Shown here: positions 5,076 through 20,849 of the stretch, in pieces
Layout of the letters: each line of letters starts with the position of its first letter
How positions within the stretch are numbered: position 1 is the stretch's first letter
NCBI RefSeq assembly: GCF_030730945.1
Contig: NZ_JAVAMS010000001.1
Span: 1-64,000 of the forward strand
From: Aurantiacibacter poecillastricola
GTDB taxonomy: Bacteria > Pseudomonadota > Alphaproteobacteria > Sphingomonadales > Sphingomonadaceae
Direction: 5' to 3'
DNA length: 64,000 nt
Program-made: the position numbers and the translations under genes
Notes under the pieces: generated by a model
Told to the model about the DNA's origin: nothing
Seen by the model: only the letters and a program-made list of their open reading frames with translations
Databases searched by the model: none

Positions 5076-7601
5076 CTAGAAGGACTTGCTCAGGCGCAGA
5101 TACCATTCACGCGGTGCTGCCGGTTGCCCCTGAATGTTCGATTGTCCGAAATCCTGCAGCAGGAAAAAGTTGTGGTAGTAGAGATCTTCGAAAAGGTTCG
5201 TGACGCCGAGCGCGATCTCGAAATCATAGTCCGGGATGGCATATGCGACGCGGGCATTCACCAGCATGTAGGATGGCTGGTTGAACTCGGTCGAAACGCG
5301 GCTGAACGTCCGGCTCCCCTGAAAGCTCCAGTCCACGCGCGGCGTGATCGTACCGCCTAGCGGCGCCCCCTCGATCGTGTACTGCAGTCCCGCATTGGCT
5401 GTCCAGAAGGGCTCTGGCTGGCGCGCATTCACCGTCCGGGCATCGATGTCGGGAGAACTGAACTTGCTGTAGCCGAGGGCGCCGTTGAACAGCAGGTTGT
5501 CGATGGGTTCGGCGGTAATTTCGGCTTCGAAACCGATGATCTCGGCAGGAGTGTTCTGGTAGAAGTTTCGAATAATGCACGTGTAACCCGGCACGCCCTG
5601 GGCAATTTCCTGCGCCGTGCGGGCCCGGCAGGTGGTGGAGCCATCGGGCCCTTCCGGCAGCGGTATCAGCACCTGGTTGCCCGGCGTATTGTTGCCGCTG
5701 GCGTCGAGCAGGATTTCCTGCCCGCCAATCGCGAGGGGACGCTTGCTGAAATCGGTGTAGAAACCAGCCAGGTTCATTCGCAGGCGCCTGTTGAACAGGT
5801 CCAGCTTGGCGCCGACCTCGTAGGCGATGTTCTCGTTCCCATCGAACTGCGCAACCTGCGTCGCCTGTTGTGGCCGGGCATTGAAGCCGGGCAGCGTATA
5901 GCCTGTCGCCGCAGACGCGTAGACCAGCGTACTGGGCGAAATCTCATAATTGATGCCCGCCTTCCAGCTCAGCACAGTGGCCTCCGGAGTCACGTTGAAG
6001 CGGATATCGCCGGGGGCAGGCGTGTTTTCCAGAAGGTTGGTGATCGACACTTCCTTCTTGTCGTCGGAATAGCGAAGGCCACCGGTCAGGCTGAGCCCGT
6101 TATCATAGCCGAACGGGCGCACGGTGGCATTGGCGTAGACCGCCTTGCTGATCGGATCGAAGGTATTGAACAGTGTGCGGATAAGGCCGGTGCGGGGCTG
6201 ATCGATGATCGCGTGCTGTGTGCCTTCGGCTTCGAAATAGAAGGCACCGAAGATCCAGTCGATCCATTCGTGTTGCCCGGAAAGCCGGGCCTCGGCTGTA
6301 ACGTAGTTGTTGGTGACGTCGTTCGTCGTCATCTCCGTCTGCAGCGGCGTCCCGTCCTTCTGGTAGACGTGGCGTTCGACGAGGGAGCGGTATCCCACGA
6401 CAGCAGTCAGGTCGATGTCGCTACTGATCTCGTACTGCAGCTTGCCCGATACGCCCCACTGGTCGAGGTCGGACCGCGGAGCGAGCGTATGCCCGCCACG
6501 CGTGCTCGATCCGTTGTAGTACGAGTGCCCCGGAATGACCGTGCCCGCGCCGATCGGATCGTTATAGGTTTCGAAGGTCTCGTAAGGATCAGGCGTGATG
6601 AAGCGGTCGTCATAGGCGACGCCGTAATAGGCGAAGGACAGGTTCTCGTTCGGCGTGTTGAGGGCGGGCCGAAGCGATAATGTCTTGTCCGCGGGGTTCG
6701 AGGATTCGTCGCGGGTGTAGTCCCCACTCACCGTCAGCCGCAGGCGTTCGGTCGGCTCCCACGCCATGGCCGCTCGAACCGCGGCGACGTCCTCCCCCCC
6801 AAAGCGCCCGATGATACAGTCGTCCGGGGTAAATTCCGGATTGCCCAGGTTGGCAAGATCGTACGGAGGCAGGTCGCCTGCCAGTTCGGGCGTCCCCAGG
6901 CGGTTCATCTCGCATACAAAGTCGAGTACCCGCTGATAGCCGCGACGCTTCTTCAGTGCTCCCGAAGCCATGAGGGCGAGGTTCTCGCCCAGCGGCATGT
7001 TGAACCCGGCGCGAATATCCGTGCGATTGAAACTGCCGACGGTCAGCTCGACATAGGACGATGCGTCGAGGAAATCGGGTTGCCGGGAGACGATGTTGAC
7101 GGCGCCTGCCAATGAGTTGCGTCCGAACAGCGTACCTTGCGGGCCGCGCAGCACTTCGACGTGATCGATATCGAGCAGATCGAAGTTCGAACCGAGAAGG
7201 GTCGGGTAATAGATGTCGTCGATATAATAGGCGACGACCGGATCGTTGCCGATATTGGTGTCACTCTGGCCGATGCCACGAATGGAGGCAGATACGCCCG
7301 GCCCGAAGGCTCCGTGGGTCCGCCTGAACTCGGCGTTTGGAACGACAACGGTTAGGTCTTCAACGTTCGACAGCCCGCGCACTTCCAGGTCCTTCGACGT
7401 GACCGCGGTAATCGCTATCGGCGTGTCCTGCATGTTGGTGGCCTGGCGGGTGGCCGTCACGACGATGTCCGAAATGCCGGCGCTTTCTCCGGTGACCGGG
7501 GGCGGTGTGGTCTCCTCATCGCCGGTCACGCTCTGCGCTGCGGTGGTGCTGGCTATGGCCAGGCTGAGCACAGACGCGCCGACAGCAATAGATCTTCTCA
7601 T
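5076..7601 (-). CDS. TonB-dependent outer-membrane receptor
   Basis: An 841-residue outer-membrane receptor. A signal peptide (about residues 1-22) is followed by the plug domain, starting near I-S-D-I-V-V-T-A-T-R and containing the typical V-E-V-L-R-G-P-Q-G-T-L-F-G-R-N and A-G-A-V-N-I-V segments. A long 22-strand-type beta barrel ends in the expected terminal phenylalanine (R-L-S-K-S-F). Sphingomonads use such receptors for import of large or scarce organic substrates as well as siderophores. Its place beside an IclR regulator and organic-acid enzymes argues for uptake of a carbon source, but the ligand cannot be read from sequence. It has its own strong terminator, so it is a separate transcription unit. 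Confidence 0.95.
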   Translation of the reverse strand: MRRSIAVGASVLSLAIASTTAAQSVTGDEETTPPPVTGESAGISDIVVTATRQATNMQDTPIAITAVTSKDLEVRGLSNVEDLTVVVPNAEFRRTHGAFGPGVSASIRGIGQSDTNIGNDPVVAYYIDDIYYPTLLGSNFDLLDIDHVEVLRGPQGTLFGRNSLAGAVNIVSRQPDFLDASSYVELTVGSFNRTDIRAGFNMPLGENLALMASGALKKRRGYQRVLDFVCEMNRLGTPELAGDLPPYDLANLGNPEFTPDDCIIGRFGGEDVAAVRAAMAWEPTERLRLTVSGDYTRDESSNPADKTLSLRPALNTPNENLSFAYYGVAYDDRFITPDPYETFETYNDPIGAGTVIPGHSYYNGSSTRGGHTLAPRSDLDQWGVSGKLQYEISSDIDLTAVVGYRSLVERHVYQKDGTPLQTEMTTNDVTNNYVTAEARLSGQHEWIDWIFGAFYFEAEGTQHAIIDQPRTGLIRTLFNTFDPISKAVYANATVRPFGYDNGLSLTGGLRYSDDKKEVSITNLLENTPAPGDIRFNVTPEATVLSWKAGINYEISPSTLVYASAATGYTLPGFNARPQQATQVAQFDGNENIAYEVGAKLDLFNRRLRMNLAGFYTDFSKRPLAIGGQEILLDASGNNTPGNQVLIPLPEGPDGSTTCRARTAQEIAQGVPGYTCIIRNFYQNTPAEIIGFEAEITAEPIDNLLFNGALGYSKFSSPDIDARTVNARQPEPFWTANAGLQYTIEGAPLGGTITPRVDWSFQGSRTFSRVSTEFNQPSYMLVNARVAYAIPDYDFEIALGVTNLFEDLYYHNFFLLQDFGQSNIQGQPAAPREWYLRLSKSF

Positions 7602-7879
7602 GATACCCTCTCCCCGATCTGGCGCCTGTTCGATCTTCGCCGGCGCCTGTGTTTGCCTTCATATGAGGTGAGTGAGGGGTGACGACTTTGCTGGAACGGC
7701 TTGAGAATTTTCGCAGGTCGGCGGCTTGGCTGAAACGTCGGGAGACCGCTGCCAATCCAATCAAGTCTGAGAGCCGCCGAAAGCATTGCTGGGCATTGGG
7801 CGAAGCTTATGATTTCCTGCCTTGAAGCTGCGTCCCGCAGCGAGTGGAACGCCAAGAACCGTCAGGAATGGATCACATT

Positions 7880-8299
7880 ATGACAAGGTCGAATACCTTC
7901 GCGCTGGCCCTTCTGCTGCCGGTTGTCGCGTGCAGCCCGGTATCGCAACCGGAAGTCGCCGCCAACGCGCCCGCGGGGCCGAATATCGCCAAAGCCTACG
8001 TGGTGGCCGAGATCAACGTGACCGACCTCGAAGCCTATCGCCAATACGTGCAAGCCGCGTTCCCCGTGATCGAGAGCTATGGTGGCCGCTTTCTTACAAG
8101 GGGCGGCACGACCGTACACATCGAAGGACTACCGCCGGCCGAGCGGGTGATGATCATCGAGTTCGAAAGCCTGGATAGGGCGAAGGAATTTGAGTATTCG
8201 CAGGCCTATAGAGATATCGCGCCTCTGAGACATCAAGCTGCGGAGAGCCGCCTATTTATCATAGAGGGCGCTGCAGACGTTGCATCCGCAGCTCCCTGA
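7880..8299 (+). CDS. DUF1330-family lipoprotein
   Basis: A 139-residue protein in which a DUF1330 (dimeric alpha-beta barrel) domain follows a lipoprotein-like leader. I chose the ATG at 7880 because it opens directly into the signal sequence (M-T-R-S-N-T-F-A-L-A-L-L-L-P-V-V-A-C); ATGs at 7844 and 7868 are in frame upstream. The probable lipid-anchored cysteine is residue 18. DUF1330 proteins are usually small cytoplasmic proteins of unknown function, so an exported form is mildly unusual. It is divergent from the TonB receptor, with a roughly 280-base shared upstream region. Confidence 0.75.
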   Translation: MTRSNTFALALLLPVVACSPVSQPEVAANAPAGPNIAKAYVVAEINVTDLEAYRQYVQAAFPVIESYGGRFLTRGGTTVHIEGLPPAERVMIIEFESLDRAKEFEYSQAYRDIAPLRHQAAESRLFIIEGAADVASAAP

Positions 8300-8370
8300 T
8301 CAGGCACCGGCCCACAACACTGCAACGCAACTGACGGGCAGTGAGACCAGGCCCCTCACTCCCCATCATC

Positions 8371-8958
8371 TCAGCGATACTTTGTGTTGGCCGCGTAAGC
8401 TTCAACTTCCAGGGGCATATCGACATGCCCGTGCTCGGATAGTTCCTGCATGTAGCGCTCGACATAGTCCCCGAAACTGGCACTGCGTTCTATCTGTGCC
8501 ACGTGAACCAATTCGTGAGCGAGGCCGGGCCGATCAAGCGCAAATCCGTCGCGAATCCAGATGGTGTATCCAAACGCCTGCGCATTGTTGGTGATGCCAG
8601 GCCCTATGAAGCCAAGGTCTTCACCCACTTCTCGCATCACCTCGTCATGCGTGGGAAACGGCACCGCATCAACGAAGACAAGACGCACTTTCTCTGGATG
8701 CTCGATCCCGATCTCGCGAGCAAGTTCAAGCTGCGTGGAAGACAGCGGTGTTCCGCGATCCTGCCCTGAGGCTTCGATCGTTTTCGCCCAATCGATATAC
8801 CTTGCGAGAAAGTCAGCTTGCGGATCTTCGCCAGCGACAGCGTCAACGCTGCAAAGCACGCTTGCAGTCACCGCCACGCCAGCCGCCGTCCGGCGGAGCG
8901 CTGTCATTATCGCGCCCGCCAGAAAGGCGGTATCTGTCTTCACGCACCAAATCATCAT
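8371..8958 (-). CDS. Exported HELVH metallopeptidase-like protein (DUF4157-like)
   Basis: A 195-residue protein. An AGGA 8 bases upstream supports the start at 8958; Met18 is an alternative that would give a more ordinary signal peptide. An N-terminal hydrophobic segment ends at A-V-A-G near residue 43. The zincin motif H-E-L-V-H (His148, Glu149, His152) is followed by V-A-Q, and a downstream P-L-E-V-E-A-Y could supply the third zinc ligand. This pattern resembles the DUF4157 extracellular peptidase-like family. Whether it is an active protease is unknown. It converges with the DUF1330 gene and stands alone. Confidence 0.65.
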   Translation of the reverse strand: MMIWCVKTDTAFLAGAIMTALRRTAAGVAVTASVLCSVDAVAGEDPQADFLARYIDWAKTIEASGQDRGTPLSSTQLELAREIGIEHPEKVRLVFVDAVPFPTHDEVMREVGEDLGFIGPGITNNAQAFGYTIWIRDGFALDRPGLAHELVHVAQIERSASFGDYVERYMQELSEHGHVDMPLEVEAYAANTKYR

Positions 8959-9043
8959 CCGCCAATTCCTGTGATGTTTCCGGGGCCAGCCTTAGCCCAT
9001 AGCCTGCAAGGTTCCGGCGCCATCCCGTCTTTCCGCCCCATTC

Positions 9044-10429
9044 TCAAACCATATCGCGTGGCCGCACGAGGCGGTCGAAGGTTTCGCCGTCGACGAGGCC
9101 GAGTTCCAGGCCGGCTTCCCTCAGGGTCTGCCCATTGTTCAACGCATGCTTGGCAATCTTTGCTGCGTTGTCGTAACCGATCTCGGGGGCCAGCGCGGTG
9201 ACGAGCATGAGCGAGCGGTCCACCAGTTCGGCAATCCGTTCCTCGTTTGGCTCTATTCCCTCCACGCAGCGGCGGGCGAAGCTGTCCATTCCGGTGGCTA
9301 GCAACTCGATCGAGTGCAGCACGTTGGACCCGATCAGCGGCATGAATGTATTCAATTCGAACTGGCCCTGCATCCCGCCAACCGTAGCCGCCTGATGATT
9401 GCCGATAACCTGGGCGGCGACCATGGTCAGCATCTCCACCTGCGTCGGGTTGACCTTGCCCGGCATGATGGAACTGCCCGGTTCGTTTGCCGGTAGCGAT
9501 AATTCTCCAAGACCCGAGCGCGGGCCGGAAGCGAGCAGGCGGATATCGTTGGCGATCTTGTTCAGCGCCACGGCGAGCGTGTTGAGCGTTCCCGAAAAGG
9601 AAACGAGTCCATCCTTGGCGGCAAGCTGTTCGAAGGAGTTATCGGCCGCGCGGAATTGCTCGCCCGTAATGTCGGAAAGCGCCGCAACCATGTCGCTACG
9701 CCAGCCTTCCGGCGCGTTCAGGCCTGTTCCAACGGCCGTTCCCCCGATCGCGAGAACATGCAGGTCGCGCTCCAGAGAATCCTCGATCCGCTCACCGCAA
9801 CTGGCGATCTGTGCGGCATAGCCGGAAAATTCCTGGCCCAGTGTCAGTGGGGTTGCATCCTGAGTATGGGTGCGCCCGATCTTGACGATATCGGCGAAAG
9901 CACGGGCCTTTGTGTCGAGCGCCTCGTGCAATCGCTCCAGGGCGGGCAAAAGCTGCTGACGCGCGGTGAGTACCGCTGCGACATGCAGCGCGGTGGGGAA
10001 ACTGTCGTTGGAGCTCTGCGACTTGTTCACATGGTCGTTGGGGTGAACCGGCTGCTTGCCCCCGCGTGTCCCGGCCAAACTCTCGTTGGCGATCCCGGCG
10101 ATCACCTCGTTGACGTTCATATTGGTCTGGGTTCCGCTGCCCGTCTGGAAGATGGTGAGCGGAAACTGATCGTCATGCTCCCCGGCTCGCACCGCCTTCG
10201 CTGCCGCTTCGATCGCGTCGGCCAGCTTCTCTTCCAGGCCATGGCGGCGGTTCACCTGTGCAGCGGCCTGCTTCACTGCTGCCTGCGCATGAACGATCTG
10301 GATCGGCATGCGCTGGTGCGGGGGGAAGGGGAAATTCTGCAGGCTGCGCTGCGTTTGCGCTCCCCAGTAGGCGTTCGCGGGGACCTCGATCGGCCCGATT
10401 GAATCCGTCTCGGTGCGTGTTTCGCTCAT
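9044..10429 (-). CDS. fumC: Fumarate hydratase, class II
   Basis: A 461-residue class II (iron-independent) fumarase, which interconverts fumarate and malate in the TCA cycle as a cytoplasmic homotetramer. The superfamily signature G-S-S-I-M-P-G-K-V-N-P is intact, as are the N-terminal G-A-Q-T-Q-R-S-L-Q-N-F and the S-S-N-D-S-F-P-T substrate-site segment. Length and organisation are normal. It is transcribed leftward with no obvious operon partner. The 858-base upstream gap separates it from the LuxR-type regulator. Confidence 0.97.
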   Translation of the reverse strand: MSETRTETDSIGPIEVPANAYWGAQTQRSLQNFPFPPHQRMPIQIVHAQAAVKQAAAQVNRRHGLEEKLADAIEAAAKAVRAGEHDDQFPLTIFQTGSGTQTNMNVNEVIAGIANESLAGTRGGKQPVHPNDHVNKSQSSNDSFPTALHVAAVLTARQQLLPALERLHEALDTKARAFADIVKIGRTHTQDATPLTLGQEFSGYAAQIASCGERIEDSLERDLHVLAIGGTAVGTGLNAPEGWRSDMVAALSDITGEQFRAADNSFEQLAAKDGLVSFSGTLNTLAVALNKIANDIRLLASGPRSGLGELSLPANEPGSSIMPGKVNPTQVEMLTMVAAQVIGNHQAATVGGMQGQFELNTFMPLIGSNVLHSIELLATGMDSFARRCVEGIEPNEERIAELVDRSLMLVTALAPEIGYDNAAKIAKHALNNGQTLREAGLELGLVDGETFDRLVRPRDMV

Positions 10430-10772
10430 GAAAGTGCTCGATTTCGCTTTCGTATCAGGGAGGCTCCCCTGTTTCGAGATCTGCCTCGGAAGCCCACTGC
10501 CGCAAGCTTGAAACAGCCATGCTTCAAGAATTGAGGGGCTGGGAAGTCGTTCCGCATGGAATGCCTTTACGGGGGCCGGCGATTGGACGGTGCCGCGCTG
10601 GACGAGGCTTATCGGCCCTTCCGAGGTCTACCTTTTTGGAGGGCATCGATTCGCGTCGTGAGCGTCGGGGCGATTCGGTTGACTGGCTCGATTCCCTTGG
10701 AATCGGCAACAAAGCCGTGATCATTCAATGATTTCCGTAGAAATACTTACTTGGTACACCCTCGAGAAGTGA

Positions 10773-10797
10773 GCAAACGCGAAAAGCGGGCGTTTGC
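10773..10797. repeat. Inverted repeat in the fumC-luxR gap
   Basis: GCAAACGC (10773-10780) and GCGTTTGC (10790-10797) are perfect 8-base arms around a 9-base spacer. No U run follows, so an operator or RNA structure is more likely than a terminator. Confidence 0.55.
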
Positions 10798-11032
10798 ATT
10801 ACGGCTGGAAAACAAGGATTTAGGATGGACTATCCATTTTTCCCGAATTCGAATCGGAATACTCTGTTCCCGGCGCATCGGGTAGCGCTACCGAGACTCC
10901 GAAGAGACCGTGCCGGACCCCTATTAACTATATTTATTCACTTTTTTGCGCTTGGCGAAAGAGCCGTCCCATTCTGGTAATCCGCAATTATCTACCGCAA
11001 TGCGGCACTGCAGCATGGCGTTTAAAATTTTG

Positions 11033-11068
11033 GCCTATCGAAGGCAAAAGATAGGCGTAATTTTCTTG
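11033..11068 (+). terminator. Possible terminator-like hairpin upstream of the LuxR-type gene
   Basis: GCCTATC (11033-11039) pairs with GATAGGC (11050-11056), and the T-rich GTAATTTTCTT follows. It could end a short leader or small RNA that begins in the AT-rich gap, or act as an attenuator. The stem is only 7 bases, so this is tentative. Confidence 0.35.
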
Positions 11069-11287
11069 CTCTCGCCGTTCATGAACCTTTCGAAATGACA
11101 TCCCGGAATCGCCGCGCCCGGGCAACGATCTAGACAATATCCGGAAGCTGTAATATTGTCCTATTCACCAGTTGAAGGCTGGCTTCCACTTTCGAATATT
11201 TCCTGGGGGGCTTTGGAAATATCGATTGGAAATAATGATTTCCGGGTCGGAATACGCCTTAAACATCCACAGGGGGGTCTACAGACC

Positions 11288-12046
11288 ATGCTTGCCCAAG
11301 ATATCTGCGCATCGCTTGTATGCGTCAATTCGCTTGCCCAGGAAGGGCTCAAACGTATCCTTAATGAGGACGGCTTCGCCTTGCGTCGCACGTTCAAAAG
11401 CTGCGACGCGCTGCTCGATGCACCTGAAGCTTCGCAGGATTTCGACCAGAATGAACTGCTGCTCGTGGATCGCAGTGCAACCCGCGACATTGCCCGCGAC
11501 ATCGCGGCTCTGCGCGAGCGCAATATCCATGCGCGCATCGTGTTGCTGGACGACCGCTTCGATTTCGAGACCATGGTGGAGGTCTTCCGCTCGGGAGCGG
11601 ACGGCTATCTCATCAAGGAAATCGACTATCGCCCGTTCCTTGAATCCCTGCGGCTCGTCGCCATGGGGGAAAAGGTCCTGCCGGGTGCCCTGGCCAACCA
11701 CCTTCCCGAATTCGGAAAGTACATGGTCAGCCCCGAAGTTGATTCCTCCGAGGTTTTCGGCGCACTTTCCGACCGCGAGGTCGAGACGCTGCGTTGCCTG
11801 ATCATGGGCTATCCCAACAAGATCATCGCCTACCGCCTCGACATCAGCGAAGCCACGGTGAAGGTCCACGTGAAGGCCATCCTTCGCAAGCTCGGCGTGC
11901 AGAACCGCACGCAGGCGGCGATCTGGGCCGTCGGCCACGGGCTGGAGCCGCATGGTTCCGGTTCGGCTTTCCCCTTCCTCGCGAAGGGCGGGCATTCGCC
12001 GGAAGCCGACCTTATCGAGACGGGCACTCTCATCGCGGCCGAATAG
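11288..12046 (+). CDS. LuxR/NarL-type response regulator with atypical receiver
   Basis: A 252-residue DNA-binding regulator. I use the ATG at 11288, which has an AGGGGGG run about 11 bases upstream; a TTG at 11156 would add 44 residues without receiver character. Residues 5-140 form a receiver-like domain with a candidate phospho-acceptor Asp61 (L-L-L-V-D-R) and the conserved Lys110 (G-Y-L-I-K). The acidic pair normally found near residues 11-14 is replaced by V-C-V-N. Residues 158-218 are a LuxR-type helix-turn-helix (L-S-D-R-E-V-E-T-L-R, then S-E-A-T-V-K-V-H-V). No histidine kinase is adjacent. Its position beside a sugar-modification operon suggests a local regulator, which is inference. 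Confidence 0.88.
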   Translation: MLAQDICASLVCVNSLAQEGLKRILNEDGFALRRTFKSCDALLDAPEASQDFDQNELLLVDRSATRDIARDIAALRERNIHARIVLLDDRFDFETMVEVFRSGADGYLIKEIDYRPFLESLRLVAMGEKVLPGALANHLPEFGKYMVSPEVDSSEVFGALSDREVETLRCLIMGYPNKIIAYRLDISEATVKVHVKAILRKLGVQNRTQAAIWAVGHGLEPHGSGSAFPFLAKGGHSPEADLIETGTLIAAE

Positions 12047-12099
12047 ACCGCGGACGGCTCAACTTTCGAGCCGACTGCCGACCGATCGAGAATATCAGG

Positions 12100-12140
12100 C
12101 GCCTGGCACCGCAATTGAAACGCGGTGCCAGGCGTTACTG
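12100..12140 (+). terminator. Terminator between convergent LuxR-type and epimerase genes
   Basis: A perfect 13-base stem, CGCCTGGCACCGC (12100-12112) with GCGGTGCCAGGCG (12122-12134), has a 9-base loop and is followed by TTACTGTTTG. It lies 54 bases after the regulator's stop. The U tract is imperfect, but the stem is very strong and may also stop the opposing transcript. Confidence 0.8.
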
Positions 12141-12157
12141 TTTGCCCCGTCGGTTCC

Positions 12158-13174
12158 CTATGCCGACCGGCTGTCTCGAAGGGAGGGCCGAACTGCCTCG
12201 GCCTCGGGGAAGCTGGCGCAATATTCCTCGTAGGCGGCTATCATCATCTCGTCGTCGCCGTGGACCGGATACCATCCGAGCCGCTCATTCGCCTCGCTGA
12301 CATCGAGCACGTAATGCTGATCGGCGATTTCGAACTGCTCCGGCACCAGCGGGCTGAGATCGAACCGGTCGAGAACGCGCAGCACCGGTTTGAGCAGGGC
12401 ACTCGGCAGCGGGACGACCGGCGATCGTGATCCGGCACGGGCAATCAGCGTCTCGATCAGATCCTTGCTGGCCCAGCGTGGCTCGGATCCCAGATTGAAC
12501 ACGCCCTGCGCATCCTCCCGGGCGATTCCGCGCACGATGGCATCGGCGCAATCGAACACCGAAATCATCTGGTAGGTGTTCGTGCCCGATCCGATCATCG
12601 GCACGGGACGGTTGTGACGGATCGCAGCAAACAGCTTTGTCATGAGGCCGAACCGGCCCGGCCCGACGATCAGGCGCGGGCGGTACACCATGACCCGGAA
12701 CGGCAGGTCTTTCGAGGCGATGAGGTCCTCAGCTGCGACTTTGGACTCCCCGTAAGGACCGAAGGGTTTACGCGGATGGTCCTTGTCCACCGGAGTGCGC
12801 TGCGGCTTGCCATACACCATGTCGGTGCTGACGAAGGAGAAGGATGCCGCCTCCAATCGCCTCGCGAGAGCGAGAACGTTACGCGTTCCCTCGACATTCC
12901 CTTCGCGGAAGAAACGCGCACGGTCTCGCCGCTTCACGGGCTTGTTGTACTGACGACCTGCCAGATGGATCACATGGGCGCCGCGCGGAAGGGACAGCGC
13001 TTCAAGCTGTTCCTTGTCGATCACGTCGACGGCGTGGTGCATGACGGCAGGCGTATTCGATTTGGGATACTGCAGGTCGAGATTGTGCACGGTCCAGCCG
13101 TCGCGCACGAGGTGCTCCACCAGGACAGAGCCCAGGAACCCGCTTCCTCCCGTCACGATGGCGTTATTGGTCAT
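12158..13174 (-). CDS. NAD-dependent sugar epimerase/dehydratase (extended SDR)
   Basis: A 338-residue extended short-chain dehydrogenase. The N-terminal G-G-S-G-F-L-G motif binds NAD, and Y-G-E-S-K holds the catalytic Tyr/Lys pair, with S-T-D-M-V-Y-G supplying the Ser/Thr. Such enzymes epimerise or dehydrate nucleotide sugars, and some act on polyprenyl-linked sugars. It is the last gene of a three-gene leftward operon, 1 base after the SMR-type transporter and behind the HAD-UbiA fusion. That context suggests work on a polyprenyl-phosphate sugar or its precursor (inference). Confidence 0.88.
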   Translation of the reverse strand: MTNNAIVTGGSGFLGSVLVEHLVRDGWTVHNLDLQYPKSNTPAVMHHAVDVIDKEQLEALSLPRGAHVIHLAGRQYNKPVKRRDRARFFREGNVEGTRNVLALARRLEAASFSFVSTDMVYGKPQRTPVDKDHPRKPFGPYGESKVAAEDLIASKDLPFRVMVYRPRLIVGPGRFGLMTKLFAAIRHNRPVPMIGSGTNTYQMISVFDCADAIVRGIAREDAQGVFNLGSEPRWASKDLIETLIARAGSRSPVVPLPSALLKPVLRVLDRFDLSPLVPEQFEIADQHYVLDVSEANERLGWYPVHGDDEMMIAAYEEYCASFPEAEAVRPSLRDSRSA

Positions 13175-13175
13175 G

Positions 13176-13550
13176 TCAGCTCCGTGCCAGCAGGATGATC
13201 CCGATGGAAACCACGAGGATGCCGGCGGCCTTCTGTAGTCCCAGCGGCTCGTTCAGGAAGAGAAACGAGATGATCGCCACGAAGGCAAAACCCAGTCCGA
13301 GGAAGGGATAGGCCAGCGAGACGTCGGTCTTGCTGAGCACGAACATCCACACGAGGATGCTGACGCCGTAGACGGCCATGGCCAGGATAATGCCGGGGTT
13401 GAGCATGATCGCCATCGCCGAATCCACCGGCTGCGAGGCGGAGAACTGCAACTTTCCCTTCAGATTGATGCTGAGCAGCAATTGCGCGCAGGCATTCAGG
13501 AAGACGCTCAGCACGATCAGCAAAATCGTGCCTGGTGAGGACGTGATCAT
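13176..13550 (-). CDS. SMR/EamA-type small membrane transporter (ArnE-like)
   Basis: A 124-residue protein with four predicted membrane helices, the size of one half of an EamA transporter and of the ArnE/ArnF subunits. Those subunits flip undecaprenyl-phosphate-aminoarabinose across the inner membrane. The helix around G-V-S-I-L-V-W-M-F-V-L-S-K-T-D-V-S-L-A-Y-P and the closing A-G-I-L-V-V-S-I-G-I-I-L-L match that family better than multidrug SMR pumps. Its start overlaps the end of the HAD-UbiA gene by 4 bases, which implies translational coupling. A role as flippase for the lipid-linked sugar made by its neighbours is inference. Confidence 0.82.
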   Translation of the reverse strand: MITSSPGTILLIVLSVFLNACAQLLLSINLKGKLQFSASQPVDSAMAIMLNPGIILAMAVYGVSILVWMFVLSKTDVSLAYPFLGLGFAFVAIISFLFLNEPLGLQKAAGILVVSIGIILLARS

Positions 13551-15013
13551 AGGGGAAGACTCGTTACGGAAGCGGCAAAGCAGAGGAACAGGAAGCCCGC
13601 CATACCGAGGCTGACCGGATCCTTCACCGCGAAAATTACCGGATCGTCATGCAATTCGCCGCGGTGGCTGAGAAGCCAGATGCGCATTATCCAGAAAACC
13701 AGCACGATGGGTGTGCCGTAAAGCATCTGCGGGTGCGTGTAGATATCGCGCGCGGCGGCTTCCAGCGTGATGAAGAGCAGCATCACGACGCAGGATGCCA
13801 TGCCCGTCGAAAGGCCCAGAGCCAGCGTCAATGGCCAGTCGTCATGCCGATACCCGCGCCCGGCAATCTTCGCGCCCTTCGAGGGTTTGGAGGAGATCAC
13901 CTCCACATGGCGCTTGGCCAGCGCCAGCGACAGGAAGACGAAGACGGCGAATGAGGTGAGCCAGGGCGAATGCGGCAGGTCGAGCAGGAGCGAACCGGCC
14001 ACGATACGGCTGGTGAACAGCAGCGCGATGATCCCGACGTCGAGCAGGGGTATCTTCTTCAGCGCGAAGGAATAGGACAGGGTCACCACAAGGTAGCCTG
14101 TCAGCGCAAGGCCGAAGGCCGTGCTGAGCGCGAAGGCACCCGCAAGGCCCATGGCCAGCATCCCCATCGCCACTATCGATGCCGGCATGACGCGCAGCCT
14201 GCCGCTGGCGAGGGGCCGGTTGCACTTGCTGCGGTGCGCGCGATCGGCGTCGACATCGAAAATGTCGTTGATGACATAGCTGCCCGAGCCCGCAATGCTC
14301 CAGAACAACACGCCCATCAGTGCCGTCGCCACCGCTTCGGGCACCAGGTAGAGCTGGCCCAGCAGCAGGGGAACCAGGATCAACAGGTTCTTCACCCACT
14401 GGTGCAGGCGGAAGAGCTTGACCCAGTCCTTCATGGACCCGCCCCCTTCCTTGTACATCCCCACGATCGGCACGCCCTGTGCGCGCAGCTTGCGCTCGTG
14501 CCGCGCGCCGTCGCCCACCAGGATCGCGCCCGCAGATGCCATCCAGACGGGCATGTCTGCCGTACTGTCGCCAGCATAGATGAAGCCGTCGGGGAAGCGC
14601 TCCTTCAGATAGCGCGCCTTTTCAGGTCCCTTCAGGTTCGACCGGCCGTCGCTGCCGGTCACGCTGTCGAACAGGCCGGTCGCTTCGCCGATGGCGTCTG
14701 CGTGATACTGGTCCGCCGCGGTGACGAGATGCAGCGACGTGCCACCGCTCTTGAGCTTGCCGAGGTTCTCCACGAGATCCTGCCGCAGCGGAGCGAGGCC
14801 TGCGTCGCGGCCCGCCATTTGCGCAAGCGAACGCTTCATCGCCGCCTTGCCGCTGGTTCCGAAAACCGCCTTCACAACGCTGCGGATCGAGGAGCCCCGA
14901 AGCACGGCAAAGAAATCTTCATGCAATGTATCGACCGGCGACAAGGTGCCGTCGAGGTCGACGACGAGATGTCGAAACTCCAACTGATCGGTCTTGCCGA
15001 CATTATGTTTCAT
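13547..15013 (-). CDS. HAD phosphatase-UbiA prenyltransferase fusion
   Basis: A 488-residue two-domain protein. Residues 1 to about 190 are a HAD-type hydrolase with motif I D-L-D-G-T (19-23) and the acidic motif G-D-S-T-A-D (148-153). Residues about 200-488 are a UbiA-family membrane prenyltransferase with the metal-diphosphate motif N-D-I-F-D-V-D-A-D (249-257) and roughly eight to nine helices. The C-terminal half resembles decaprenyl-phosphate 5-phosphoribosyltransferase (Rv3806c type, also NoeC of Azorhizobium) more than UbiA of ubiquinone synthesis. The HAD half could remove the 5-phosphate after transfer. It is the first gene of the operon. Specific substrates are inferred, not seen. 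Confidence 0.85.
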   Translation of the reverse strand: MKHNVGKTDQLEFRHLVVDLDGTLSPVDTLHEDFFAVLRGSSIRSVVKAVFGTSGKAAMKRSLAQMAGRDAGLAPLRQDLVENLGKLKSGGTSLHLVTAADQYHADAIGEATGLFDSVTGSDGRSNLKGPEKARYLKERFPDGFIYAGDSTADMPVWMASAGAILVGDGARHERKLRAQGVPIVGMYKEGGGSMKDWVKLFRLHQWVKNLLILVPLLLGQLYLVPEAVATALMGVLFWSIAGSGSYVINDIFDVDADRAHRSKCNRPLASGRLRVMPASIVAMGMLAMGLAGAFALSTAFGLALTGYLVVTLSYSFALKKIPLLDVGIIALLFTSRIVAGSLLLDLPHSPWLTSFAVFVFLSLALAKRHVEVISSKPSKGAKIAGRGYRHDDWPLTLALGLSTGMASCVVMLLFITLEAAARDIYTHPQMLYGTPIVLVFWIMRIWLLSHRGELHDDPVIFAVKDPVSLGMAGFLFLCFAASVTSLPL

Positions 15014-15239: not shown

Positions 15240-17339
15240 TCAATGCAGCCCCTGCACGGATGACAGCCGGGTCAGCCCGGAGTCGATCTGGCAGAACTCC
15301 TCGAATCCGATGGTGCTGTTCGAGATCTTGGCGAGATGATGCGTGAGGCGCTTGGCCTCCTCGTCGTCGCCCCGCTCGGCCACGCGTTCCAGCTCGTCCA
15401 GGCAGGAGTTGATGAAGGGCAGCGGAATGGGCCGCGAACGCGCTTCGAAAATGCCGCTGATGCGCGAATCAACCTGGTCCTCGCAATAGTCGAACAGCTC
15501 CTCGTAGAGCTTCTCGCCGGGACGCAGGCCGATGAAGTCGATGGGAACGTCGAGCTCCGGCTCCAGCCCGTACAGGCTGATGAGGCGATGCGCGAGATCG
15601 ACGATGCGAACCGGCTTGCCCATGTCGAGGACGAAGATCGTGCCGCGCTCGGTATCCTGCTCCAGCGCCGAGGAGCTGCTCTGCAGGATCAGCTGCACGG
15701 CTTCGTGCACGGTCATGAAGAAGCGCTCGATATCGGGGTGGGTGATCGTCAGCGGCTTGCCGTCTTCCAGCTGCTTCTTGAGCAGAGGAAGGATCGATCC
15801 GCTCGAGCCCAGGACGTTGCCGAAGCGCACCGTCATGAAGCGCGGGGCACCCGCATCGTCCACGCCGCAGCGGTCGAGCGACTGGCTGTAGAGCTCGCCC
15901 ACACGCTTCGTGGCGCCCATCATGCCGACGGGGTTGACGGCCTTGTCGGTGGACACCTGCACCATGGCGCGCGCGCCGTATTCGCACACGGCATTGGCGA
16001 TGATCCGCGTGCCGAGAATATTGGTCAGCACACCTCCGCACGGATTGGCCTCCACCATCGGCACGTGCTTCAGCGCCGCTGCGTGGAACACGATCGAGGG
16101 CCGATGCTTGGCGAACACGCGGCGCACCTCGTGGCGATTGCGGATGTCGCAGAGCTCCGGATGGATCTCGAGATCGGGGTAGCGTTCGCGCAGGCGCCGC
16201 TCGATGCTGTAGAGGGCAAATTCGCTGTGCTCGACGAGGATCAGCTTGGAAGGACTGAAGCTGGCGATCTGCCAGCACAGTTCGCCGCCGATCGTGCCGC
16301 CCGCCCCGGTGGTAAGGATGCACTCGCCCTCGATCTGCGAGGCGACGAGGTCACCATCGCTCTTGTACTCGCTGCGGCCAAGCAGGGCCTTTGTGTTCAG
16401 TTCCACCTTCCCTGCGTGGTTGTTCTTGAGGAGGATCTGGCTCCAGCCGTCGCGAATGCGCAGCAGTTCCATGCCCAGATCGCGAGCGCGCTGCGAGAGG
16501 CGCGCCATCTCGCGCTCGCTCAATTGCAGGCTGTCGTCGCTGACGATGACGAGGGAAGGATTGCGGCCCCTCGCCCGAAGGTCCTCCACCACATCGGTCA
16601 GCATGTCATGGCTGCCCAGCACCACCGCCTTGCCAACCCGGGCAATCGGGTCGCTGACCGAGGGCAGGAGTACGCCGGCGACCTGGAAACTGGGCGATTC
16701 CTCGTTCGCGACAAGGTCCAGCACCGACCGGGCCCATTGCGGCGATCCGACTAGGAGGGCAAGCGGCTGGTCCGTCACTGCAGCTTCCTCCCTGCGCCCG
16801 ACCCACGGCAGCTGGGCGAAGCGGTATTCCTGGATCGAACGGCGGGTGCCGCGAAGCACCATCATGAAAGCCAGCGCGAACAGCGCCTGCGCCAAGGCAA
16901 GCCCTATGATCGAAAAGGTAACGGGGTTGCCGGTAAACCACAGCACCGCCCCCCATGCGGGTATCATGGAGAGAAAACCTACCACCATCAGGTAAAGCGC
17001 ACTGGCAAAATCGAAGAAGCGCCAGCTGCGGTAATAGACGCCGGCGAGGTACAGGAGAGCGAGCGAAATGCCGCAGAACATGACGTAGATCTGTTCGGAC
17101 ACGAAGATATTCGAGAACATCCCCATGAACGAGATTTCGATTACCACATGCAGGCTCGCCAGGATCGCCAGTCCATCGAGGAAGGCCAGGATTGCCACGC
17201 GCCGCGCTCGCCGCAGGCTCTTGAGCCGCGAGCGGGCCCAACGCTCTCGCAGGGAGCGGCCTAACGTGCTGAATGAGGACTCCCTGCCCGCGGCAACCTT
17301 GCCCAGACCATGGAGTTCGCTGGTTGCTTCCTTGCCCAT
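15240..17339 (-). CDS. Membrane-bound nucleotide-sugar 4,6-dehydratase (FlaA1/CapD/PglF type)
   Basis: A 699-residue protein from the ATG at 17339, which has an AGAAGG upstream; an open frame continues to 17744 without coding character. About residues 45-160 hold four membrane helices and are followed by a CoA-binding-like Rossmann domain. The C-terminal half is the catalytic SDR domain with G-A-G-G-T-I-G. As usual in this family, the active-site segment reads S-T-D-K-A-V-N-P-V-G-M-M-G-A-T-K, with Met in place of the SDR Tyr. These enzymes turn UDP-GlcNAc into UDP-4-keto-6-deoxy-GlcNAc, the first step toward bacillosamine and related sugars. The aminotransferase at 27455-28684 could act next. 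Confidence 0.92.
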   Translation of the reverse strand: MGKEATSELHGLGKVAAGRESSFSTLGRSLRERWARSRLKSLRRARRVAILAFLDGLAILASLHVVIEISFMGMFSNIFVSEQIYVMFCGISLALLYLAGVYYRSWRFFDFASALYLMVVGFLSMIPAWGAVLWFTGNPVTFSIIGLALAQALFALAFMMVLRGTRRSIQEYRFAQLPWVGRREEAAVTDQPLALLVGSPQWARSVLDLVANEESPSFQVAGVLLPSVSDPIARVGKAVVLGSHDMLTDVVEDLRARGRNPSLVIVSDDSLQLSEREMARLSQRARDLGMELLRIRDGWSQILLKNNHAGKVELNTKALLGRSEYKSDGDLVASQIEGECILTTGAGGTIGGELCWQIASFSPSKLILVEHSEFALYSIERRLRERYPDLEIHPELCDIRNRHEVRRVFAKHRPSIVFHAAALKHVPMVEANPCGGVLTNILGTRIIANAVCEYGARAMVQVSTDKAVNPVGMMGATKRVGELYSQSLDRCGVDDAGAPRFMTVRFGNVLGSSGSILPLLKKQLEDGKPLTITHPDIERFFMTVHEAVQLILQSSSSALEQDTERGTIFVLDMGKPVRIVDLAHRLISLYGLEPELDVPIDFIGLRPGEKLYEELFDYCEDQVDSRISGIFEARSRPIPLPFINSCLDELERVAERGDDEEAKRLTHHLAKISNSTIGFEEFCQIDSGLTRLSSVQGLH

Positions 17340-17604
17340 CCCTTCGCCTTCTTCGCTTGAGGCCAGATACGCGCACGGCAAAAACCGATCGCGAACGTGT
17401 GGGTCATTCCTATCGCAATTCAGGCGAAAACAGGGCGGCGCATACTGGGATGATTCGGAATCGTCGGACGCGTTCCTAACGGATGGTTTACCGAATACTA
17501 ATGGGCAGTCCGCTTGTTGGGCGTGGAACGTTAGAAAGTTCTCGTGATTACCGGCGGCTGCGATAAGCGTCGCTCCGACTGACTGGACTTTAGGGGAAGT
17601 ACGA

Positions 17605-18516
17605 ATGCGGGCTGTGGTTGTCGGAGCGGTAGAAAGTACTGCCGTGCTGGCCGATGCGCTGGCAAGGGCCGATGGCTGGTCAGTGCCCCTTATCGTAACG
17701 CTGCCGAAAGACCTGGAGGCGCGCCATTCCGACTTCGTCGACATGCAGCCTTACGCACAGCGCCTCGGTGCGCAGCTGCATTTCGCCCGAAACTCGAACG
17801 ATGCCGATACCCTTGCCGCCATCGACAAGGCAGAGCCGGACTATATTTTCGTGGTGGGCTGGTCGCAGATCTGCAAGCCGGAGTTTCTGGCGCTGCGTCC
17901 GGGCAAGGTCATCGGCTACCACCCTGCACCCCTACCCCGCTTGCGCGGGCGCGCGGTAATCCCGTGGACTATCCTTCTGGAGGAGAAGATCACGGCCAGC
18001 AGCCTGTTCTGGGTCGATGAGGGCACCGATTCCGGCGACCTCCTATCCCAGCGCTATTTCCACATCGCCAGCGACGAGACGGCACAGGAGCTGTACGACA
18101 AGCACATGCACAGCCTGAAATTGATGCTGGATGACTTGCTGCCGAGAATGGCGCGCGGCGAGGAACCACGTATTGTTCAGGATCACCGCTACGCCACCTG
18201 GGCAGCGCGGCGCACGCCGGCCGATGGCGCGATCGACTGGCAGGCGAGCGCCGCCGAGATCGACCGCCTGGTGCGTGCCGTGGGGCGGCCCTATCCGGGA
18301 GCGTTCACGTTTCGCGGCGAGGCCCGGATCACGGTGTGGAGCACCGCTCTGGAAACGGGCGCCGAACAGTATCATGGCATGCCGGGCCAGATCGTCCGCA
18401 ACGAGGAGGGCGAATTGATCGTGCAGACCGGGGACGGCCTCGTCCGCCTTGTCGAATGGGAGATGGATGGCGCAGGCACGCCGCCAATGCACGCCATCCT
18501 GGGGGAAAGACGATGA
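17605..18516 (+). CDS. Formyltransferase-family protein, catalytic Asn replaced
   Basis: A 303-residue protein of the methionyl-tRNA/sugar formyltransferase fold, which uses N10-formyl-tetrahydrofolate. Residues 102-145 give the active-site region: His106 in G-Y-H-P-A-P-L-P, the R-G-R turn, and Asp142 in D-E-G-T-D-S-G-D. These correspond to ArnA His104 and Asp140. The third catalytic residue, Asn in N-x-H, is Gly104 here by my alignment. The C-terminal domain (about 205-300) is the OB-like part. It overlaps the PIG-L deacetylase by 4 bases, which suggests a two-step change at an amino group of a sugar. It is not the housekeeping fmt, judging by sequence and context. Confidence 0.82.
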   Translation: MRAVVVGAVESTAVLADALARADGWSVPLIVTLPKDLEARHSDFVDMQPYAQRLGAQLHFARNSNDADTLAAIDKAEPDYIFVVGWSQICKPEFLALRPGKVIGYHPAPLPRLRGRAVIPWTILLEEKITASSLFWVDEGTDSGDLLSQRYFHIASDETAQELYDKHMHSLKLMLDDLLPRMARGEEPRIVQDHRYATWAARRTPADGAIDWQASAAEIDRLVRAVGRPYPGAFTFRGEARITVWSTALETGAEQYHGMPGQIVRNEEGELIVQTGDGLVRLVEWEMDGAGTPPMHAILGERR

Positions 18517-19199
18517 CGACGCTTGCGCAAATGGGACGGGTGCTGGTGATCGCGCCGCATCCCGACGATGAAATCCTCGGCTGCGGCGGAACGATGGCTC
18601 GGCTCCTTGCGGCAGGACATGAGGTCCACGTGGTCGTGGCGACCACGGGCCGTCCGCCTGCCTTCTCTGCCGAAAGCGTGGCGAAGGTGCAGGGCGAGAT
18701 GAAGGCCGCGCATGCTTTCCTCGGCGTGACGCAGACACATGTGATCGACCTGCCCGCCGCGGCGCTGGATACCGTTCCGGCAGCCACGGTGAATGCGGAG
18801 ATCGGCAGGATTGTCGATGAAGTGAAGCCGGACACGCTGTTCGTGCCCTTCTATGGCGATGTGCATGGCGATCATCAGCTTGTCTTTACGGCGGCGCTCG
18901 TCGCTGCGCGGCCGCGGCACGCTCATGCGCCAGCGAATATCCTCGCATACGAGACGCTATCGGAAACGAACTGGTACGCGGCGCCCGTGACCCCGGCTTT
19001 CGTGCCCACCGTCTATATCGACATTGCGCAAACGCTCGAGACCAAGCTCGATGCCTTCCGGCAGTTCGAGAGCCAGGTACGTCCCTTCCCGGAGGAGCGT
19101 TCGGTCGAAGCGATCGAGGCGCTGGCGCGCTTCCGGGGATCGACAGTCTATTGCGAGGCTGCCGAGGCCTTCGTCAATGTCAGGCAGATCTTGCGGTAA
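18513..19199 (+). CDS. PIG-L family N-deacetylase
   Basis: A 228-residue zinc-dependent deacetylase of the PIG-L/LmbE family. The metal site is clear: P-H-P-D-D-E at residues 15-20, and H-G-D-H-Q with His118 and His121. Family members remove acetyl groups from GlcNAc moieties in lipids, nucleotide sugars or small molecules. The ATG overlaps the formyltransferase-like stop (ATGA), so the two proteins are translationally coupled. Deacetylation of an N-acetylated sugar followed by acylation by the partner is the simplest reading and is inference. The 3' end is 6 bases from the convergent GT39 gene. Confidence 0.9.
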   Translation: MTTLAQMGRVLVIAPHPDDEILGCGGTMARLLAAGHEVHVVVATTGRPPAFSAESVAKVQGEMKAAHAFLGVTQTHVIDLPAAALDTVPAATVNAEIGRIVDEVKPDTLFVPFYGDVHGDHQLVFTAALVAARPRHAHAPANILAYETLSETNWYAAPVTPAFVPTVYIDIAQTLETKLDAFRQFESQVRPFPEERSVEAIEALARFRGSTVYCEAAEAFVNVRQILR

Positions 19200-19205
19200 G
19201 CCTGC

Positions 19206-20849
19206 CTAGTGTCGCCCTTGCAGCCCCGGCTGCGAAGGGCCGGCAATTAGCGGCTGGCTTCGCAGGTAGAGGATGCCTTCGTCCTTGCGCCGGTCGCCCA
19301 GCTTCACACTCGTCGGGCGGTAATCGTGGGCGCGCGCCCATTCCTCCAGCACGCCGTCGAGATGGTCTTCGGTGCCGATCAGGATCGCTGCGGGCGGATC
19401 GCGCTCGAGGATCGCACCGATGGAACGCGGCGTCGCGACATCGTCGAAAAAGGCCCGGTCCGGCGCGTCGACATATTCCACCGCGCGGTAGATGAACGGG
19501 CCGAGCAGCATCTGCCGGTAGCCGTCTCGCCGCGCTTCCGCGCCATAGGCGGGTGCCAGCGTCAGCAGCCGCCCCTCGTTTCCGGATTGCGCCATCTGCA
19601 CGGCCATGTCCTGCGCGGCTTCGTGCACCATGTTGCCCGTCCAGGTGGATGGGCGCGGCAGGTACCGCAATTCGGGCAGCAGGAGTGGGAGCGACGCGAA
19701 GCTCGCCATCAGCATGACGGTCGCCATCAGCGGTCGCAGTGTTATCCGGCTTGCCTGCGTGATGCAGCCATAGGCCCAGGCGCTGAAGATCAGACCGAAG
19801 GCAATCGGCGGCGCGTAATATTGCGGGAAAGCGGGTGTGGGGACGAAGGAAATCAGCGCTGCACCCACGACAAGCGCGCCCAGCATGAAAAGCGGCCAGG
19901 TCGGCTTTACAGTCTCCGCCTCGTCTCGCGGACGGGCCTCGATCAGCCTCGATATGCCCAGGATGATGGCCAGCAGCAGGATCAGCATGGTGGTGCCGGA
20001 AAGCCAGACCTGCTGTGCGACAATCGCCTTTTCGCGCAGCGACATCGCCACCGGTCCCTCGATCCTGCCATTCGCCGTCCAGTAATCGACATGCGCATCG
20101 CCGTGGAAGTTCACGACGTGGGCGAGGAAATTGGCCGGGTCCTGCGCAAAGAAATAGAATGACGGCAATCCCGCCAGCACCGCTCCAGCGACGAGCGGCA
20201 GTGTCACGCGAAGCAGCCTCTCCTGCAAGGCAAGGCCGGGCGGTACGAGAAGGGCGGCTACTGCAATCGGCGGCACCAGCACGACGTAATTGGCCTTGAG
20301 GCCGATGGCGAAGGAGAGGCAGACGCCCCCCGCAAAGCATGCAAGGGGGCTTGCCGCCTTGCCTGTCGTGCCTCTCAGGAAGAGGTAGAGGCCCAGCAGC
20401 GCAAAAGGCACGGGTGCGAAATTGTTGGTAACCAGCATTCCGGCCGTTCGCAGGAGCAGCGGATCGAGCATCAGCAGGCTTGCGATGAATGCCGCGAACA
20501 GGCGTGAGCCACCAGCCAGCCGCGCGGTCGCATAGAGCGCATAGACACCCAGCCCCCACAGCGCCGCGATCAGCAAGCGCCCTGCGAACAGGAACCGCTC
20601 CACGCCGAACATATCGAAAATGGTGCTCAGCAGCAGCGGGAAGTTAGGCAGGTGCGTGAAATGCACTTCCTCGTAGAGATGCGCCTGTTCTGCCAGATAG
20701 CCCGCTACCAGGTAGAAATGCTCGTCATGCCGCAGGGGATAGGCCATCAGGCGTGCGAAGAGCGCAGCGCCCAGCACGGCCAGCCAGGCGGCAGCGATCG
20801 CCGACTGGTGCCACACTAGCCAGTCCCCCACCCTGTTTGCTGCTAGCAT
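19206..20849 (-). CDS. ArnT-like GT39/GT83-type membrane glycosyltransferase
   Basis: A 547-residue polytopic membrane protein from the ATG at 20849, which overlaps the stop of the upstream acyltransferase gene. Near the N-terminus, A-Y-P-L-R-H-D-E-H-F-Y carries the acidic pair in the first periplasmic loop that is typical of polyprenyl-phosphate-sugar-dependent transferases (GT39/ArnT-like). About ten to twelve hydrophobic helices follow, then a periplasmic tail. Such enzymes move a sugar from a polyprenyl-phosphate donor to lipid A, protein or a glycan on the periplasmic side. The donor could be the product of the HAD-UbiA operon nearby. It is the last gene of the long leftward operon. Confidence 0.85.
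   Translation of the reverse strand: MLAANRVGDWLVWHQSAIAAAWLAVLGAALFARLMAYPLRHDEHFYLVAGYLAEQAHLYEEVHFTHLPNFPLLLSTIFDMFGVERFLFAGRLLIAALWGLGVYALYATARLAGGSRLFAAFIASLLMLDPLLLRTAGMLVTNNFAPVPFALLGLYLFLRGTTGKAASPLACFAGGVCLSFAIGLKANYVVLVPPIAVAALLVPPGLALQERLLRVTLPLVAGAVLAGLPSFYFFAQDPANFLAHVVNFHGDAHVDYWTANGRIEGPVAMSLREKAIVAQQVWLSGTTMLILLLAIILGISRLIEARPRDEAETVKPTWPLFMLGALVVGAALISFVPTPAFPQYYAPPIAFGLIFSAWAYGCITQASRITLRPLMATVMLMASFASLPLLLPELRYLPRPSTWTGNMVHEAAQDMAVQMAQSGNEGRLLTLAPAYGAEARRDGYRQMLLGPFIYRAVEYVDAPDRAFFDDVATPRSIGAILERDPPAAILIGTEDHLDGVLEEWARAHDYRPTSVKLGDRRKDEGILYLRSQPLIAGPSQPGLQGRH

Follow-up and report, generated by a model that had tools for sequence, protein, structure and literature searches.

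Three genes in a 64,000-nucleotide stretch of the alphaproteobacterium Aurantiacibacter poecillastricola (contig NZ_JAVAMS010000001.1, positions 1 to 64,000; hereafter the window) probably serve to make and export a polyprenyl-phosphate-linked pentofuranose. They are located on the minus strand and encode, in the order of transcription, a fusion of a HAD phosphatase domain with a UbiA-type membrane domain (HAD-UbiA), a small transporter of the SMR family and an extended SDR (xSDR). All three open reading frames (ORFs) start with ATG. The HAD-UbiA and SMR ORFs overlap by 4 bases, and the SMR and xSDR ORFs are 1 base apart, which agrees with an earlier note on this DNA made from the sequence. 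The motifs read there, the HAD set DLDGT and GDSTAD and the UbiA motif NDxxDxxxD, are indeed found within one ORF. The trio is a real, coherent operon of a kind already known, with a set of parts that is a variant.

What the analysis shows is the order and families of the genes, the conservation of their catalytic residues, the folds and the co-occurrence of the parts. The following pathway, with all its substrates and products, the flipping step and the acceptor, is inferred. The UbiA half would transfer 5-phosphoribose from phosphoribosyl pyrophosphate (PRPP) to polyprenyl phosphate, presumably undecaprenyl phosphate. The HAD half would strip off the 5-phosphate to yield polyprenyl-P-ribofuranose, as judged from the homologue ORF15 (see below). 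xSDR would epimerise the lipid-linked ribose using bound NAD without a need for DprE1, and the SMR protein would flip the product to the periplasmic side, where a GT-C enzyme, possibly the one encoded at 19206-20849, would add the pentose to the exopolysaccharide of the neighbouring cluster.

Table 1. Features of the operon and its vicinity (window coordinates; TM, transmembrane segments)
Feature	Position	Strand	Remarks
HAD-UbiA fusion protein, 488 aa	13547..15013	-	predicted polyprenyl-phosphate 5-phosphoribosyltransferase and 5-phosphate phosphatase
HAD phosphatase domain	14444..14986	-	about residues 10-190
HAD motif I DLDGT, residues 19-23, nucleophile D19	14945..14959	-	D19, D21, T23 invariant in 42 sequences
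HAD motif GDSTAD, residues 148-153	14555..14572	-	G148, D149, D153 invariant in 42 sequences
UbiA-fold membrane domain, residues 193-486	13556..14437	-	
NDIFDVDAD, residues 249-257, Mg2+/PRPP motif	14243..14269	-	N249, D250, D253, D257 invariant in 42 sequences
KRHVE, residues 367-371	13901..13915	-	K367, R368, H369, E371 invariant in 42 sequences
SMR/EamA-type small transporter, 124 aa	13176..13550	-	predicted flippase; about 4 TM (hydropathy)
Extended SDR (xSDR), 338 aa	12158..13174	-	predicted epimerase of lipid-linked pentose
TGGSGFLG nucleotide-binding motif, xSDR residues 8-15	13130..13153	-	G9, G12, G15 in 35/35
YGESK catalytic motif of xSDR	12740..12754	-	Y141, K145 in 35/35
YQM, xSDR residues 201-203	12566..12574	-	35/35 aligned relatives (alignment A3)
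Hairpin, possible terminator	12099..12135	.	14 pairs, one G-U, 9-base loop; -32.6 kcal/mol, z -5.57
GT-C/PMT-like membrane protein	19206..20849	-	Pfam PMT 8.6e-5, 22.6 bits vs 22.7; about 9 TM (hydropathy)

HAD-UbiA belongs to the curated full-length fusion family NF006088 of NCBIfam (518.7 bits, cut-off 351, residues 14-482). Pfam detects UbiA across residues 214-451 (1.3e-16) and HAD with 4.1e-5 and 24.5 bits, slightly below the gathering score of 27. The structure was predicted with a pLDDT (predicted local distance difference test) of 91.8. The two domains are not joined by chance, since 2666 of 7998 scored candidates match HAD-UbiA at E <= 1e-30, and the 120 matches listed are similar in size (467-541 aa) and domains, with about 100 (counted by eye) carrying a HAD-type domain besides UbiA. 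The same architecture is known from ORF15 of Citrobacter youngae (Kelly et al., 2024, PMC11127046). Membranes with ORF15 convert PRPP and farnesyl phosphate to farnesyl-P-ribose, and mutant D18A yields the 5-phosphate form together with a little farnesyl-P-ribose (PMC11127046). This means, the central idea of the earlier note, transfer and dephosphorylation by one polypeptide, is sound and had already been proven experimentally for a homologue. All seven catalytic residues of ORF15 are kept in HAD-UbiA: D19 corresponds to ORF15 D18, N249, D250, D253 and D257 to N247, D248, D251 and D255, and R368 and E371 to R366 and E369. The ORF15 numbering was transferred via the Citrobacter protein P0073 (43-44% identity to HAD-UbiA), which we take as ORF15 or a near copy because its seven residues carry precisely the numbers given in the paper. 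In addition, K132 is present among the HAD motifs. By homology with ORF15, HAD-UbiA would make polyprenyl-P-ribofuranose.

The fold of the UbiA half is nearest to that of mycobacterial Rv3806c (8j8j) among 999 chains aligned, and 9 of the 12 PRPP-contact residues of Rv3806c are kept. Two of the changes, Q135 to T and Y157 to F, are shared with P0073 and with the Mesorhizobium protein P0108; K208 aligns with G385. The equivalents of K28, Y70 and K87 are present in all four phosphoribosyltransferase sequences compared and absent from the UbiA and ChlG of the same genome. An aromatic or heme prenyltransferase, with the HAD domain serving an unrelated role, would have the UbiA superfamily fold and NDxxDxxxD in common with a phosphoribosyltransferase. 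However, the UbiA half reaches only 29.8 bits with the ubiA_proteo model (cut-off 275.45) and 33.9 bits with the heme o synthase model (cut-off 210.3), and the genome already encodes a separate ubiA and chlG. Such an identity is rejected on the basis of model scores and residues, and its probability is very low. Model scores, PRPP residues and structure comparison thus agree on a phosphoribosyltransferase of the Rv3806c kind, as had been suggested before. Two minor observations concern UbiA proteins elsewhere. A bacteriochlorophyll synthase is encoded in the same genome (G000:C1:456156-456560, L051), and the host might therefore perform anoxygenic photosynthesis. A phage record from human faecal samples (MT837543.1, 4892-5866) matches the UbiA half weakly (29% identity).

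xSDR scores 2.1e-36 with Pfam Epimerase and is predicted to adopt a GalE-like fold (pLDDT 93.6). At the position of its residues 201-203, two outgroup nucleotide-sugar SDRs have RDY and RDF, whereas the xSDR family lacks the Arg, which presumably contacts the nucleotide as in GalE. xSDR is best read as a polyprenyl-P-ribose epimerase, whose product is probably xylofuranose and possibly arabinofuranose. In C. youngae, whether ribose or xylose is made depends on the SDR ORF13 alone (PMC11127046). A lone-SDR conversion like that by ORF13 is favoured because no convincing DprE1 was found in the genome; hence, xylofuranose comes first as the most likely product, with close to an even chance, and arabinofuranose is a clearly weaker second candidate. 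The best match to a DprE1 protein query in the genome has 31 bits, while the DprE1 ORFs counted at other loci reach 239-633 bits with this query (the self-match and one uncounted 44-bit match excluded). The DprE1 model NF053785 yields 61.8 bits over model positions 18-188, i.e. the N-terminal flavin adenine dinucleotide (FAD) part only; its cut-off is 500, and other alphaproteobacterial DprE1s likewise fall below it. A DprE2 model finds 26 matches in the genome, the best with 67.1 bits (cut-off 250), a size as for ordinary short SDRs. The DprE1/DprE2 route to arabinose is therefore not favoured.

To which partners HAD-UbiA is linked elsewhere was determined in a census. HAD-UbiA is patchily distributed: with the own genome included each time, it was detected in 39 of 397 genomes of the family (1e-50), 19 of 296 of the order (1e-20), 2 of 40 of the genus and 49 of 398 sampled genomes of the phylum (1e-60), where eight matches span only part of NF006088. 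About 8 kb on each side were taken from 46 of 48 non-own Sphingomonadales genomes (G092 and G160, with fragmentary or partial matches, were left out) and from 34 of 46 further phylum genomes (12 matches left out). We set the thresholds at 200 bits for DprE1, 80 for DprE2, 100 for xSDR, 45 for SMR and 40 for GtrA; weaker xSDR matches, with 32-65 bits at several loci, were not counted. Among the 46 Sphingomonadales loci, 21 have only SMR, 16 have DprE1, DprE2 and GtrA (three of them plus a further epimerase), 6 lack any part sought and 3 are of other composition. The 34 further loci comprise 23 with DprE1 and DprE2 with or without GtrA, 6 with DprE1, SMR and xSDR without DprE2, and 5 others. Taken together, 46 loci contain DprE1: 39 with DprE2 and without xSDR, six with xSDR and without any DprE2 match, and one (L156) that shows no DprE2 but is cut by the contig end. 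Fisher's test for xSDR versus DprE2 gives 7.5e-7 with kinship ignored (one family contributes five of the six loci, another family the sixth). Locus L210 (6059-9500) contains a very compact run of HAD-UbiA, SMR and a PMT_2-type GT-C, in which no epimerase was found; judged from its genes, it is apparently a minimal ribose-adding three-component system.

DprE1 and SMR together with an extended SDR, DprE2 not being found, were seen at the six loci L189, L190, L192, L194, L197 and L206 and also at L218 and L227. At the four of these that were scanned (L189, L206, L218, L227), the DprE1 protein matches the DprE1 model best, with 329-410 bits. A DprE1 accompanied by xSDR and not by DprE2 suggests that xSDR might stand in for DprE2 there. 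This leads to an alternative for the operon: xSDR could be a DprE2-like reductase that completes a C2 epimerisation begun by an FAD oxidase encoded elsewhere, with polyprenyl-P-arabinofuranose as product. It would account for the absence of xSDR (at least 100 bits) from all 39 census loci with both DprE1 and DprE2 and for GMC oxidoreductases near xSDR relatives in L095, L101, L202 and L217. Nevertheless, we consider it rather unlikely: In addition to the lack of a convincing DprE1, the Pfam scan of 50 window ORFs revealed neither a DprE1-like nor a GMC oxidase, and four haloarchaeal cassettes with xSDR (see below) have no DprE1 or GMC match in the fetched stretch. In three of the loci mentioned, L095 (NGR234, 5938-13359), L101 and L202, the vicinity of HAD-UbiA includes a GMC oxidoreductase, SMR, a distant xSDR and a second SDR, which in L095 and L101 is followed by a GT-C-like protein. 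HAD-UbiA of L095 and L101 is NoeC-like.

Epimerisation by a lone xSDR also has to be weighed against the possibility that xSDR and SMR serve another sugar of the exopolysaccharide cluster, for instance a nucleotide sugar or an aminoarabinose-like lipid, while HAD-UbiA alone makes polyprenyl-P-ribose. Modified hexoses are products of the surrounding cluster, which encodes a Polysacc_synt_2 dehydratase, a DegT aminotransferase and a formyltransferase, the SMR protein is nearest to the ArnF and ArnE models, and the 21 Sphingomonadales loci with SMR have no epimerase of the kinds searched. The tight spacing of the three ORFs, the shared contigs of their near relatives, the association of xSDR relatives with synthases of phosphoribosyl lipids in Alphaproteobacteria as well as haloarchaea, hence in two domains, and the missing Arg make this improbable. 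Among the matches listed, there are 16 HAD-UbiA relatives at 66-77% identity (remainder 49% or less), 13 SMR relatives at 59-83% (next 43% or less) and 12 xSDR relatives at 61-64% (remainder 48% or less). By proxy matching, which gives a lower bound, close relatives of all three genes are co-located on at least two contigs and pairs on more. The 66-77% relatives of HAD-UbiA, which include those of Qipengyuania zhejiangensis and Sphingopyxis kveilinensis, were not recovered as genomes in the scans of order, family, genus and relatives. A scan of genome contigs yielded distant UbiA proteins only, whose best segments reach 41% identity at most, and its 48 loci were not used further.

The small protein itself matches Pfam EamA and Multi_Drug_Res. 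It has the four-TM SMR size of ArnE and ArnF, which are its best NCBIfam scores. In contrast to them, it stays below both curated cut-offs (ArnF 47 bits versus 99, ArnE 37.5 versus 92) and is encoded by a single gene. In 20 of the 21 Sphingomonadales loci with an SMR match, the SMR gene is on the same strand as HAD-UbiA and within about 1.6 kb. The proposed role as flippase of the lipid-linked pentose is therefore plausible, while flipping itself is a prediction.

When xSDR was searched independently of HAD-UbiA, it was found on 6 plasmids and in 3 of 385 class genomes beyond the own genome. The neighbourhoods of all six plasmid records were inspected, compared with 8 of 83 plasmid records for HAD-UbiA. 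A UbiA phosphoribosyltransferase is encoded within the fetched stretch at seven of the nine loci. Of the remaining two, L217 encodes a GMC oxidase besides a GT-C-like protein, and at L228 the contig stops about 1 kb beyond SMR. Haloarchaeal plasmid cassettes (L219, L220, L221, L222) account for four of the seven loci and represent one lineage, not four independent events. Such a cassette (L219, 4874-10443) comprises a phosphoribosyl-lipid synthase, a PHP-domain protein, an LPG-synthase-like membrane protein, xSDR and a DolP-mannose-transferase-like GT-C; the Halostagnicola synthase exceeds its curated cut-off (240.5 versus 234). An xSDR tree (support values aside) places the window protein with its close relatives, the DprE1-linked proteins and the haloarchaeal ones in three separate clades. 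We tentatively suggest, with rather less than even confidence, that xSDR represents a new family of polyprenyl-phosphate-ribose epimerases which accompany phosphoribosyl-lipid synthases in bacteria and archaea. It might operate in two modes, as a lone self-sufficient NAD epimerase (window, haloarchaea) or paired with DprE1 or GMC oxidases with DprE2 displaced, and haloarchaea might possess a full lipid-linked pentose pathway, in which the PHP-domain protein would be the phosphatase and the LPG-synthase-like protein the transporter. Should this reading of xSDR hold true, an SDR of another subfamily can take the place of DprE2, and haloarchaea join the organisms with lipid-linked pentoses. Searches of an open-literature collection, at the level of titles and abstract openings, showed no description of DprE1 paired with an extended SDR or of the haloarchaeal cassette.

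Several points weigh against the pathway proposed for the operon. Six of the nine kept PRPP residues (R22, N73, D77, R90, Y138, K143) also occur in the genome's own UbiA, so that just three discriminate. The argument from Arg to Tyr relies on two outgroups and on what is known of GalE. The likeness of ORF13 (PMC11127046) and xSDR is seen from the printed motifs TGXXGXXG and YXXXK. xSDR at 100 bits or more was found in none of the 46 other sampled Sphingomonadales loci; the trio is rare. This means, the expectation of the earlier note that the three genes co-occur holds for a tight clade whose near orthologues share contigs, as matched by proxy, and fails across the sampled order. The eight DprE1-linked xSDRs compared form one clade, which may be a DprE2-like reductase in need of a partner oxidase, and the own genome has four GMC-oxidase matches, all outside the window, as potential partners. 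Finally, the GT-C gene at 19206-20849 is located outside the operon and is not co-conserved: no relative of this GT39-like protein was found at E <= 1e-4 in 88 other loci. It was consequently rejected as a conserved partner of the trio and retained as a candidate only, which perhaps uses the lipid-linked pentose.

The operon can be compared with known systems. In C. youngae O1/O2, a three-component pentofuranose system consists of ORF15, ORF14 and ORF12, with ORF13 added in O2 (PMC11127046). In both systems, a HAD phosphatase forms the N-terminal part of a fusion with a UbiA phosphoribosyltransferase, and a lone SDR turns ribose into its epimer (a prediction for xSDR). A flippase gene adjoins them, in the operon a predicted one. 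However, the Citrobacter flippase is of the MATE type instead of the SMR type, and a GT-C with a binding module (GT136) is encoded in that locus but not in the operon. Rv3806c (8j8j, 8j8k) resembles the UbiA half in fold and most PRPP-contact residues, and Rv3789 was proposed as SMR-type flippase of its pathway (PMC11127046). In contrast to HAD-UbiA, it has no HAD domain, a separate unrelated phosphatase is used and epimerisation is performed by DprE1/DprE2. The relatedness to NoeC that had been pointed out is real: P0108 from Mesorhizobium, which bears the name NoeC, has the HAD-UbiA architecture as well (45-46% identity). noeCHOP serves arabinosylation of Nod factors in rhizobia (PMC5080398), and the end product of that pathway differs in being D-arabinofuranose. 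The NGR234 locus deviates by its second SDR, GT-C-like protein, GMC oxidoreductase and distant xSDR alongside SMR. A distant blastn search with the NGR234 gene in E. coli genomes gave no match. By these comparisons, a large and vaguely annotated family (UbiA family prenyltransferase NF006088) gains a known biochemical footing in Sphingomonadales, and epimerase genes suggest which pentose a HAD-UbiA locus makes.

The hairpin at 12099-12135 separates the operon end from a convergent LuxR-type gene (11156-12046). With its loop of 9 bases, it is not among the calls of a terminator scan confined to loops of 3-8, and a promoter scan of the window found no promoter. Upstream of the trio, a Polysacc_synt_2 protein is encoded on the same strand (15240-17744). 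According to Pfam scans of the window ORFs, the trio forms one end of a long polysaccharide cluster that includes Wzy_C proteins, group 1 glycosyltransferases, a sulfotransferase, Wzz-like ATPases, a Poly_export protein, a pyruvyl transferase and UDP-sugar enzymes. The sulfotransferase-domain protein (26625-27458) adjoins a DegT-type aminotransferase. Among the minus-strand genes, the plus strand at 17605-19199 carries ORFs for a formyltransferase and a PIG-L-type deacetylase, which overlap as called, the start of the second being uncertain.

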